Assembly: GCA_018262815.1 (NCBI GenBank)
Contig: JADFDN010000007.1
Location: forward strand, 1 to 45,629
Direction: 5' to 3'
Length of the DNA: 45,629 nt
Source of the DNA: Thiobacillus sp.
GTDB lineage: Bacteria; Pseudomonadota; Gammaproteobacteria; Burkholderiales; Thiobacillaceae
Position 1 is the first letter of the stretch; each line of letters opens with the position of its first letter. The notes under the pieces are model-generated. The model had not been told where the DNA came from, ran no database searches, and was given only the letters and a program-made list of their open reading frames with translations. The translations under genes were made by a program, and so were the position numbers. Of this stretch, positions 24,299 through 44,826 are shown piece after piece.

Positions 24299-24955
24299 AT
24301 GATCGACTGGTCGACCATCGACACCGTCTTCCTCGACATGGACGGCACCCTGCTCGATCTTCACTTCGACAATCATTTCTGGCGCGAGCACATGCCGCGC
24401 CGCTATGCCGAATACCACGGGCTCGACGAGGCGGTGGCGCGCGCCCACCTCGACCAGCACTACGAACGCCACGCCGGCACGCTCAACTGGTACTGCCTGG
24501 ATTTCTGGAGCAGCGAACTGGCGCTCGACATCGTGCAGCTGAAGGAAGAGGTCGTGCACCTGATCGCGGTGCGCCCCGACGTGCCGGCCTTCCTGCAGGC
24601 GCTGCGCGCGTCGGGACGCCGCGTGGTGATGGTGACCAATGCCCACCCCAAAAGTCTCGGCCTGAAAATGCGCGAAACCGGGATCGAAACCTGGTTCGAC
24701 GCGCTGATCTCATCCCATCAGGTCGGCCTGCCCAAGGAGCATCCGGATTTCTGGCAGGGCCTGCAGGCGATCGAGCCGTTCGACAGGACGCGCACCCTGT
24801 TCGTCGACGACAGCCTGCCGGTGCTGGAGAGCGCCCGGGCCTACGGCATTTCCCAGCTGCTGGCGGTGTGCAACCCGGATTCGCGGCAGCCGCACAAGGA
24901 TTGCGGGGCGTTTCAGGGGATTACGAGTTTTGAGCAGGTGATGCCGGGGGGGTGA
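24299..24955 (+). CDS. yrfG: HAD-family GMP/IMP nucleotidase (YrfG-like)
   Basis: DTVFLDMDGTLLDLHFDNHFWREHMPRRYA, VMVTNAHPKSL, LFVDDSLPVLESARAYGI. Confidence 0.88.
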   Translation: MIDWSTIDTVFLDMDGTLLDLHFDNHFWREHMPRRYAEYHGLDEAVARAHLDQHYERHAGTLNWYCLDFWSSELALDIVQLKEEVVHLIAVRPDVPAFLQALRASGRRVVMVTNAHPKSLGLKMRETGIETWFDALISSHQVGLPKEHPDFWQGLQAIEPFDRTRTLFVDDSLPVLESARAYGISQLLAVCNPDSRQPHKDCGAFQGITSFEQVMPGG

Positions 24956-25001
24956 GCTGTCGTTGCGAGGGGCTTAGCGCTGAAGTACCAGTCTTTGGTT
25001 T

Positions 25002-25674
25002 GGCGCGGAGCACGTCCGAGTAGTTGGTTTTTCGCGGGGCTGCTGACCGTTGGCCGGGGGTAGCCCGGCAGCTAGTCACTTTTTTTGTCTCGCCAAGAAA
25101 AGTAACCAAAAGAAGGCGACCCCGACAGTCCCGAATTCCCGAAGATCAAGCGCGTCGGTCGGGCGGCAAAGAACTCGCCCCGCCTTTGATGTTTTTAATT
25201 GGATTGTTGTGGACGGGGCTCAAACACCTTTGCCGCTGATCCACCCGACGCACTTGATCTTCGGCGGGTCTGTAAGGGGAAGAAGGTCAAAATCAGTTTG
25301 CCAATGGGCTGCCGTCGCGAACCGGATCAGGGCTTCGCAGTAAAGCCACCCAATTACACAGACTGCCGCGTCATCACCGACCTGATTTTGACTTTCAGCC
25401 CCTCTCAGTCCCGCCGGAAATCGAGTCTGCCGGGCGGATCAGCGGCAAAGGTGTCTGAGCCCCGCTCACCTTCGAATTCCTGCAAAAGCGGGGCGAGTTC
25501 TTTGCCGCCCGCCCGGCAGGCTCGATTTCCGGGGTTTCGGGGATGAGCGGGGTCGCTTTTTCTTTGGTTACTTTCTTTTGGCGAGACAAAAGAAAGTGAC
25601 TAGCCGCCGGGCTACCCCCGGCCAACGGTCAGCGGTCCCGCAAAGCCAGTAACTACTCAGTGTTGCTCCGCGCC
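25002..25674. repeat. Large foldback element: two ~295-bp imperfect inverted copies (25002-25296 and 25382-25674) around an ~85-bp spacer
   Basis: Reverse complement of 25382-25674 aligns along its whole length to 25002-25296 (e.g. shared CTGACCGTTGGCCGGGGGTAGCCCGGC, GGCGGCAAAGAACTCGCCCCGC, ACACCTTTGCCGCTGATCC). Confidence 0.92.
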
Positions 25675-27609
25675 TACGTCATGCGCCGCAAAAAACCGCT
25701 CCACCACCTCCAGCTTCCGCGTCCGCGTCATCGCCGGCAGCGCATTCAACAACAAGCGCCCATACGGCTTATCCGCCAGCCGCGTATCGCAGATCATCAG
25801 CACCCCGCGATCCGTCTCGGTGCGGATCAGCCGCCCCGCCCCCTGCTTGAGGCTGATCGCCGCATGCGGCAACTGGTAATCCATGAACGGCTTGCCGCCG
25901 TTCTTTTCGGACTGGGCGATGCGCGCAGCGACGACCGGATCGTCCGGCGGCTGGAACGGCAGCTTGTCGATGATGACGACCGACAGCACGTCGCCAGGCA
26001 TGTCGACGCCTTCCCAGAAGCTCTGGCTGCCAAGCAGGACGGCGTTGCCTGCTTTCTGGAAGCGGGAAAGCAGTTCGTTCTTCGGCGCGTCGCCCTGCAC
26101 CAGCAGCGGATACTCCCAGCCGCGAAACTTGAAGGCGTCGGTCAAGAGGCCACGCGCCTTGTCCAGCGCGCGCAGGCTGGTGAACAGGATGAACGCGCGC
26201 CCCTGGCTGATTTCCAGAACTGGAAGCGCGGCTTCCACGACGGCTTCGGTAAACTCGGGAGAATTGGGCGCGGGAAGTTGCTGAGGGACGTAAAGCACAC
26301 CCTGGCGCGGGTAGTCGAAGGGACTGTCGACGCACAGGGTTTCCGCCTCATCGATTCCGAGTCGGGTTTTCAGATGGCTGAAGTCGCCCCCGACCGAAAG
26401 CGTGGCCGAGGTGAGAATCCAAGCCTGCGCGCGTTCGGAGAGCCTGGCGCCGAACATCGCGCCGACGGACAGCGGCGTCGCATGCAGCAGCAATGAGCTC
26501 AGCGTGGTTTCGAGCCAGCGCACGCGCGGATGCTCAGGATCGTCATCGCGTTGCCAGCTGGCCAGCGTGGCCTGCACCGCCTGCGCGCGCTCGAAACAGT
26601 TCTTCAGATCCGCGTCGCGCTCGGCCTGGGTTTCCAGCAGTTTCGCCGTTTCATCCAGCGCCGCGCTCAGCCTCTTCAGCGCGTCCGGCCATTTATCGTA
26701 GCGCGCGAGTTCCGCAGCGGTCGCCTTGACCGGATTCTGCGGAAACGCCAGGCGCAGATCCCGCGCGGCCTTGGTGAGGTCTTCGGCGGCCCGGCGCAGG
26801 GCGGGGAAGTCGCCTGCCTTCACCGCCGCCAGCCGCTTGGTGTCACCGGCCAGATCGAGCAGCTGCGCGACGGACAGGTTTTCGCCGAAAAACTGCGCGG
26901 CGGTTTCGGCAAGCTGATGCGCCTCGTCGAGGATCACGGTGTTGCAGGCGGGCAGCAGTTCGGCGACGCCTTCGTCCTTCAGCCACAGGTCGGCGAAGAA
27001 CAGATGGTGGTTGACCACCACGACTTCCGCGTCGAGCGCGTTCTTGCGCGCAGCCATGACGAAGCAGTCCTTGTAGTGGCTGCACTCGCTGCCGAGACAG
27101 GTATCGCGGCTGGAGACGGCGTAGAGCCAGGCGGTGGCATCCTCGGGAATGCCTTCGGCCTCGGCGCGGTCGCCGCTGGTGCTGGTTTCGGCGAAGCGGG
27201 CGATCTTCTGCAGCCACGCGGCATCGTCGCGGTTTGCGAAGCGTCCGTCGCTCAAATTGCGCTGCAGGTGGTGATGGCAGACGTAGTTTGCGCGCCCCTT
27301 CAGCAGCGCAACCTTGACCGGCGACTTCAATGCGCGCCGTGCGGCTGGCAGGTCGCGATGGAACAGCTGGTCCTGCAGCGCCTTGGTGCCGGTCGAGATC
27401 ACCACCTTGCCGCCCGACAGCAGCGCGGGAATCAGATAGGCCAGGGTCTTGCCGGTGCCGGTGCCGGCTTCGGCCAGCAGCACGCTGTTGTCGGCGACCG
27501 CACGCTCGACCGCCTCGGCCATGGCCAACTGCTGCGGCCGGGCGCGCCAGCCTGGCAGCACCGCGGCGCACGCCCCATCGGGGGAAAATATGTGTTTCAG
27601 ATCAAACAT
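25657..27609 (-). CDS. dinG: ATP-dependent DNA helicase DinG/YoaA family
   Basis: LLAEAGTGTGKTLAYLIPALL, FeS-cysteine region CHHHLQ...CLGSECSHYKDC, VILDEAHQL, GSQSFWEGVDMPGD, QGAGRLIRTETDRG; start taken at MFDLKH. Confidence 0.92.
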   Translation of the reverse strand: MFDLKHIFSPDGACAAVLPGWRARPQQLAMAEAVERAVADNSVLLAEAGTGTGKTLAYLIPALLSGGKVVISTGTKALQDQLFHRDLPAARRALKSPVKVALLKGRANYVCHHHLQRNLSDGRFANRDDAAWLQKIARFAETSTSGDRAEAEGIPEDATAWLYAVSSRDTCLGSECSHYKDCFVMAARKNALDAEVVVVNHHLFFADLWLKDEGVAELLPACNTVILDEAHQLAETAAQFFGENLSVAQLLDLAGDTKRLAAVKAGDFPALRRAAEDLTKAARDLRLAFPQNPVKATAAELARYDKWPDALKRLSAALDETAKLLETQAERDADLKNCFERAQAVQATLASWQRDDDPEHPRVRWLETTLSSLLLHATPLSVGAMFGARLSERAQAWILTSATLSVGGDFSHLKTRLGIDEAETLCVDSPFDYPRQGVLYVPQQLPAPNSPEFTEAVVEAALPVLEISQGRAFILFTSLRALDKARGLLTDAFKFRGWEYPLLVQGDAPKNELLSRFQKAGNAVLLGSQSFWEGVDMPGDVLSVVIIDKLPFQPPDDPVVAARIAQSEKNGGKPFMDYQLPHAAISLKQGAGRLIRTETDRGVLMICDTRLADKPYGRLLLNALPAMTRTRKLEVVERFFAAHDVGAEQH

Positions 27610-27728
27610 TTTTGGACCAGATTTCGAGTCGGAGTGTACCATTCGGTCAAACAGCCCCGACGGTTCTTGTTTCAAGTTTGCCAAGCTATCTGACGTTAGT
27701 TCTATCGATTTCGCTTTTCGGCCTTCTC

Positions 27729-44021: not shown

Positions 44022-44726
44022 CTAGCCCCCGACTTCCTTCCGCGGCCGCCCCACCCCCTTCGAAACCGTGCGGCGCTGCGTCAACTGCTCGATTTCCTCC
44101 TTGAACCCGTCGCTCCCCAGCGCCCAGCCCTTGTGCGTGCAGCCGCGGATGGCTTTCAAATCGTCGTTCGACACCGCCGCGCGGAATAGCAGTCGATAGG
44201 CCGCCTGCCGGTCGGCCGCATTGCGGCCCAGGCGCAGGTATTCCCGGTGCGGCATCAGCCAGTTCGAATTCGGGCCGGATTCGCCTTGCGCGTTGAAGGC
44301 GTGGCTCGACCAAGGGTAGTCTCGGGGATGCGCCACCATCCCCGCTCGCACCGGGTTGAGTTCGATGTAGCGCATCAAGGTCAGCAGATAGCGCTCGCTG
44401 TCCACCACCGTCGCCCGGTAGCGCCCTTCCCACAGCGTGCCACTGCGGTTGTACGTGTAATTGAAGTACTGCACGTATTTTCGCCCCACCGACTGGAAGA
44501 CCTTGCTGATGCTGTCGTCGAATTCAGGCGTGGCCAGCAGGTGGATATGGTTGGTCATCCACACATAGGCGTGGATCGCCAGGCCATGCTTGAGCGAAGC
44601 CTCGACCAGGGCGTCGCGAAAGAACTGGTAGTCCGCCTCAGCGGCGAAGATGGTCTGGCGGTTGTTGCCGCGCTGGATGATGTGCTGCGGGTGACCGGGA
44701 ATGACGTAGCGGGGAAGACGGGCCAT
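44022..44726 (-). mobile_element. REP-associated tyrosine transposase (Y1_Tnp/RAYT)
   Basis: MARLPRYVIPGHPQHIIQRGNNRQTIF; AYVWMTNHIHLLATP (HxH); YIELNPVRAGMVAHPRDYPWSSHAFNA. Confidence 0.92.
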
Positions 44727-44764
44727 GGGGGCAGCGATACCGGGGGATGCCCGCAGCATAGCAC

Positions 44765-44826
44765 TAAATTAATCGTGTCTGACCCCTTTTATTTCTAAAT
44801 TAATCGTGTCTGACCCCTTTTATTTC
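44765..44826. repeat. Exact 31-bp tandem duplication upstream of the RAYT gene
   Basis: TAAATTAATCGTGTCTGACCCCTTTTATTTC x2 (44765-44795, 44796-44826), then a further TTTTATTTC. Confidence 0.95.

Follow-up and report, generated by a model that had tools for sequence, protein, structure and literature searches.

A Thiobacillus foldback between convergent genes: a candidate non-autonomous mobile gene cassette with structured ends and no cargo

The stretch of DNA analysed here (the window) comprises 45,629 nucleotides of a Thiobacillus contig (JADFDN010000007.1, assembly GCA_018262815.1). In it, two convergent genes, coding for a yrfG-like HAD hydrolase on the left (24299-24955, plus strand) and a dinG-like helicase on the right (25657-27684, minus strand), enclose a region (25002-25674) that aligns with its own reverse complement over all 673 bases at 76% identity (442 bits, E = 1.5e-124). 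Ungapped blocks of 77-91% identity (I1-I6) cover both arms of this region, and all other inverted matches in the window score 36.5 bits or less, which excludes a chance origin of the repeat. Folded as single-stranded RNA, the whole unit attains -395 kcal/mol (z = -23), and a single arm folded alone has z = -6.25. The first-pass annotation had described the region as two full-length inverted copies forming a foldback that is explained by no ORF and encodes no transposase; this description holds, with the similarity extending well beyond short terminal motifs. A Pfam search with the small ORFs inside 25002-25674 returned no match, and a protein-coding origin of the foldback was rejected on this ground together with the lack of a conserved frame. 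Given that arm lengths fall in all three classes modulo 3 and that the frame between two landmarks is not constant, the 'SHFLL..KKVTKEKATP' peptides are by-products of translation; the earlier remark that similar peptides are annotated elsewhere is likely right. Rfam yielded no gathering-score match anywhere in the window.

Comparison of one unit at two sites narrows the mobile part to about 25052-25624 (573 bases). On either side, the outermost ~50 bp are not common to the copies of one unit at two different sites; they constitute an older palindrome that is a property of the site and not of the mobile unit. Its left half (25002-25051, plus strand; GGCGCGGAGCA...CTGACCGTTGG; blocks I6 and I2) is not shared between copies of one unit at two sites, and its right half (25625-25674, minus strand) reaches into the 3' end of dinG, whose stop codon it provides. 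The unit itself is made up of arm A (25052-25296, plus strand) and its inverted copy, arm B (25382-25624, minus strand), with two distinct inner ends between them: type T3 (TTTGCCAATGGGCTGCCGTCGCGAACCGGATCAGGGCTTCGCAG; 25297-25338, plus strand), which is kept in cargo-less foldbacks, and type T1 (GTCGGTGATGACGCGGCAGTCTGTGTAATTGGGTG on the minus strand; 25339-25381), which is common with the 3' side of the cargo-loaded units described below. Each arm runs from a terminal hairpin through a pseudoknot with a third strand to a long hairpin. The terminal hairpins form the borders of the mobile unit on the left (GCCGGG-GGTAG-CCCGGC; 25053-25069, plus strand) and on the right (25606-25622, minus strand). 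The triplex-pseudoknot core of the left arm (25078-25119, plus strand) reads ACTTTTTTTG, loop TCGCC, AAGAAAAGT, AACC, AAAAGAA and GGCGA, and that of the right arm lies at 25552-25598 on the minus strand. The long hairpin of the left arm (25120-25279, plus strand) shows compensatory pairs and a conserved apex, GAACTCG...GCTCAAACA.

Consensus folding of 66 arms with RNAalifold recovered 52 pairs, with double changes in 17 of them. The outermost GC hairpin is variable in sequence, and is nevertheless present in 70 of 94 units as against about 7 in shuffles. Across phyla the core takes the form, from outside in, ACTTTCTTTG - Y - CAAAGAAAGT - AASC - AAAGAAA - Y', where the stem formed by Y and Y' averages 4.35 bp, compared to 2.97 +/- 0.105 with shuffled partners. 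As Y and Y' are complementary and covary, the core amounts to an H-type pseudoknot. The last A/G run in turn covaries with the stem, keeping a mirror register in 19 of the 20 units that are asymmetric (e.g. CTTTTCTT with AAAAGAA, and CTTTTTCTT with AAAAAGAA), and so behaves as would be expected of the third strand of a triplex. On the outer-to-inner strand A.C mismatches exceed G.T mismatches (46 versus 12; 19 versus 2 when counted by pairs), which suggests that, if an RNA is the active form, it is read from the inside outwards; the support that these counts lend to the choice of strand is moderate, since the sequences share ancestry. Read in this direction, the third strand would be U-rich and the arrangement would equal a major-groove U.A-U triplex pseudoknot, a structure known from telomerase RNA.

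The first-pass annotation had also proposed a dispersed, uncharacterised repeat family, and this is borne out: the window's own genome holds one further full pair (C80) along with four or five partial or contig-edge copies, and copies are found in 27 of 41 genomes searched, a set composed almost entirely of species of the same genus; G021 and G054 have many copies, whereas G014 and G041 have none. Most of the genomes compared are draft or metagenome-assembled, and two single-contig genomes (G011 and G024) also carry elements. Named Thiobacillus contigs carry the core as inverted pairs; within the genus the family occurs as facing inverted pairs or as single arms, and all pairs have the same facing orientation in the 40 loci first examined. 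The pairs come in two kinds: 'empty' ones with a spacer of 73-106 bp, as in the window, and loaded ones, in which 0.27-1.4 kb lie between the arms and usually contain a single AT-rich ORF. An ORF was called in 27 of the 45 pairs collected, over which the mean GC content is 0.48 for the cargo versus 0.635 for the flanks. The cargos are mutually unrelated, the exceptions being two AbiU2-type HEPN proteins and a small ORF that is shared; besides the HEPN proteins they include a DUF2971 protein, a trypsin-like protease, RraB/DUF695, a GNAT enzyme, small membrane proteins and many ORFs without a Pfam match. Three of them match candidate defence models weakly, no cargo was recognised as a transposase, and no transposase gene was seen between or beside the arms in the loci examined. 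One small membrane-protein ORF is the sole cargo at one site and is preceded by another ORF at the dinG site (L122, L320), a hint of two-gene arrays. The cargo has a fixed polarity with respect to the inner ends: type T2 (GATTACTATTTGGGCTTCAC) is found 12 times at the 5' ends of the ORFs and 3 times at their 3' ends, and type T1 (GTGCTTGTGTTGCGACGC) 14 times at 3' ends and 3 times at 5' ends (Fisher p = 0.001). Foldbacks combine T1 on one side with a third conserved inner-end type on the other, which indicates that they are a distinct conserved form and not random deletions.

Clustering by flanking DNA places most pairs in about eight sites common to several species. At one of these, six species with both flanks orthologous contain five different cargos or a foldback; across species, the dinG site holds two foldbacks, four different cargos, a solo hairpin or nothing. 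Such solo hairpins (CGTTGGCCGG-n-CCGGCCAACG, ~30 bp) number 15 in 13 genomes, with at least 10 of the 15 standing at sites occupied in other genomes, and can be read either as targets or as deletion relics. A version of the palindrome without the hairpin, as would be expected of an ancestral target, was not found. Between occupied and solo sites one terminal hairpin is kept with no plain direct duplication; of the features that the first-pass annotation had suggested looking for, empty sites were found and target-site duplications were not recognised. Beyond this, its reading stands as regards a non-coding foldback family, and had overlooked the cassette system with single-gene cargo, the sharing of sites with cargo turnover, relocation and the conserved structured arms; the cassette nature becomes visible only with other genomes at hand. 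Outside the outer palindrome, the flanks in L115-L136 and L347-L361 show other palindromic repeats, either CGTCATTGCGAGCG..AAGCAATCCAG (similar to CGTC-tagged REPs) or CGTTCGCCCTGAGCCTGTCGAAGGGC pairs, with several sites nested within them.

Arm distances are 0.148 within a site and 0.160 between sites, in the midst of flanking DNA that is about 80-95% identical, and inheritance of the arms together with the site was rejected accordingly; as the arms do not cluster by site, units must arrive with their own arms. The one clear case of relocation is provided by the foldbacks at the dinG site of G016 (L052) and the yrfG site of G042 (L325), two unrelated sites in sister species. They are the same foldback at ~97-98% identity as counted on the alignment, and this identity begins and ends at the terminal hairpin (CGTTGG|CCGG). 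Presence of one foldback at two unrelated sites with such sharp borders implies that the unit moves; this pair supports relocation directly, and the missing clustering by site agrees with it in general, while no insertion was seen between strains of one species. Cargo also changes within arms, given that L042 and L045 differ in cargo and in site but are similar in their arms (96% and 93%).

The latter case brings to the fore an alternative without dedicated mobility, wherein the arms are just long dispersed homologies, and both cargo and whole elements change hands when DNA taken up recombines homologously, in the manner of minimal mobile elements. Arms that are 80-95% alike over ~250-300 bp speak for it, and so does the mixed make-up of the window, in which the flanks of the foldback (24955-25674 region) correspond to two different sites: the left one matches the yrfG site of relatives and the right one their dinG site. 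The window copy thus sits at a hybrid junction, resulting either from rearrangement or recombination through the arms or from a false join in the assembly; the reciprocal flanks were not found in the window's own genome, an 82% complete draft, and the family-level conclusions are not affected by this junction. Recombination on its own, however, leaves unexplained the sharp terminal-hairpin border shared by L052 and L325, the origin of new sites, the polarity of the cargo and the conservation of the triplex pseudoknot across phyla, and we regard this alternative as unlikely.

Pairs lie between convergent genes in 30 of 39 cases, versus 10 of 82 other neighbouring gene pairs in the same loci. 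This invites the explanation that the arms are host 3'-end RNA elements, i.e. terminators or protectors of mRNA ends, which are paired on account of the convergent genes and enclose cargo incidentally. The strong structural covariation of the arms, the mismatch bias favouring an RNA read from the inside outwards and the existence of single arms and direct tandems would all fit this proposal. So would an Rfam-predicted Burkholderia sRNA, Bp1_684 (RF02421), whose model matches the outermost part of the homologous arm from Caballeronia on the inside-outwards strand (39.3 bits as against a gathering score of 44; E = 4e-7) and has no match to the Thiobacillus element. A known RNA family was rejected as the identity of the arm, as there is no Rfam match at threshold; RF02421 covers part of one arm, and does not include the repeat nature, the pseudoknot, the inverted pair or the cargo. 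Further, REPs, which are mobile, show a similar preference for convergent 3' ends (PMC3733652); location therefore does not separate the host-RNA proposal from a mobile element. The proposal is difficult to reconcile with the relocation of a whole foldback with sharp ends between unrelated neighbourhoods, with arms that do not follow the site and with a cargo polarity fixed relative to the inner ends, and we consider it quite improbable.

Beyond Thiobacillus, the core is found in Caballeronia, Paraburkholderia, Ralstonia, Variovorax, Dechloromonas, Neisseria, Xanthomonas, Lysobacter and Pseudomonas, and also in Desulfuromonas, Mucilaginibacter, Chitinophaga, Selenomonadales, Clostridium and Ilyobacter, thereby spanning several phyla. 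Foldback pairs outside the genus occur in Caballeronia, Burkholderia, Ralstonia and Variovorax; two more bins (L221, L237) have pairs that apparently bear cargo. In a set of 149 genomes of the class, one per family, the exact core pattern was present in 8 and a control pattern in none, a patchy spread as for mobile DNA. Carriage by phages or plasmids was rejected: the core is absent from a phage collection and present in 6 of 2.9 million viral contigs, and the plasmid matches are to large replicons of 0.67 Mb or more. Inverted pairing is not universal, in that the units of G028, from another family, are single or in direct tandem (e.g. L333, 1500-1850). Among individual loci, the core directly follows two tRNA-like 3' ends (...CCA) in a Clostridium bin (L201, 3848-3885 and 4216-4253) and a strong terminator-like hairpin in Pseudoflavonifractor (L204, 5553-5615). 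In Burkholderia sp. Ac-20365 facing cores (L198, 3141 and 5888) surround a gene for a gabD-like aldehyde dehydrogenase adjoining a gabT-like gene, the former possibly being a host gene enclosed by arms. One Caballeronia locus (L160, 5068-5176) has a Guanidine-I riboswitch upstream of a urea ABC transporter substrate-binding gene.

Several known systems share parts of this organization. As in MICs, or MITEs with a passenger gene, which are thought to move in trans, inverted repeats bound a short transposase-less element with one ORF, and empty versions exist; unlike in these, the arms are structured modules of ~245-300 bp with a cross-phylum core instead of being short copies derived from IS ends, neither a parent IS nor a target duplication was recognised in the loci examined, and units reside at a few shared sites with cargo turnover. 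Integron cassettes resemble the element in their single AT-rich ORF, mostly unassigned or defence-like cargo, fixed polarity and folded recombination sites. They differ in having one attC in place of two long inverted arms and in forming arrays, whereas the element's units are scattered singly over many sites with no tandem array; by-eye inspection of the inner ends T1 and T2 for attC (RYYYAAC/GTTRRRY) revealed no GTTRRRY match, and no integrase was noticed next to the units. Minimal mobile elements of Neisseria likewise present different genes at one site between conserved flanks, but those flanks are ordinary conserved genes and not a repeated structured arm that changes site.

Closest in location are the REP, BIME and REPIN systems with RAYT (including TIRtrons), which are palindromes at convergent 3' ends, often in inverted pairs and with single copies as relics; the present element is ten times longer, carries cargo and is not linked to Y1 genes. 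Nonetheless, the palindromic and intergenic character that it shares with REPs at convergent 3' ends, together with the TIR families described around Y1 genes (PMC3733652), raises the idea of a REP/TIR family mobilised by IS200-type Y1 transposases (RAYT or TIRYT). A RAYT-type Y1 gene does occur elsewhere in the window (44025-44768, minus strand), not associated with the foldback arms. Against this idea, the element-rich G005, G012, G019 and G020 and the single-contig G024 are devoid of Y1 genes, Y1 is present in G014 where the element is absent, the core is found in none of 30 Y1 loci, and no Y1 gene lies beside the arms in the arm-bearing loci searched. In light of this phyletic and positional mismatch Y1 transposases were rejected as the general mover, and such an origin is very improbable.

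Taken as a whole, we propose, with a probability of about 0.6, that the foldback represents a non-autonomous mobile gene cassette in its cargo-less state, with structured ends and moved in trans. A full cassette would consist of the terminal hairpin, the pseudoknot/triplex, the long hairpin, T2, one ORF, T1 and the same arm inverted. Such units may settle at a few palindromic sites between convergent genes, be lost down to one terminal hairpin and then be replaced there by units with other cargo. The folded arm, as RNA or single-stranded DNA, would most probably be recognised by a factor encoded elsewhere, and we infer the mover of the cassette to be a dedicated trans-acting recombinase or reverse transcriptase, with the folded strand being what it recognises. 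No mobilising enzyme was found, and the element encodes no transposase. A more far-reaching version, which we regard as doubtful although conceivable, is that these elements represent a cross-phylum class of mobile gene cassettes with folded-RNA ends, wherein arms read outwards would form a telomerase-like pseudoknot with U.A-U triples, and a trans-acting enzyme, possibly a reverse transcriptase, would capture single genes and move them between palindromic sites. Our literature search on the core string and on inverted-repeat cassettes retrieved nothing relevant.

These observations recast intergenic repeats, which mostly enter annotations as junk peptides, as a candidate carrier of single accessory genes in free-living bacteria, among them the two AbiU2-type HEPN proteins, weak candidate-defence matches and many proteins without an assigned function. 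They also furnish a motif for direct testing, the conserved triplex pseudoknot with its three-way covariation. The occurrence of different cargo at the same site in each species constitutes a natural experiment on gene swapping with neither a resident transposase nor an integron, and the class of cassettes with folded-RNA ends, if true, would be a previously undescribed system.
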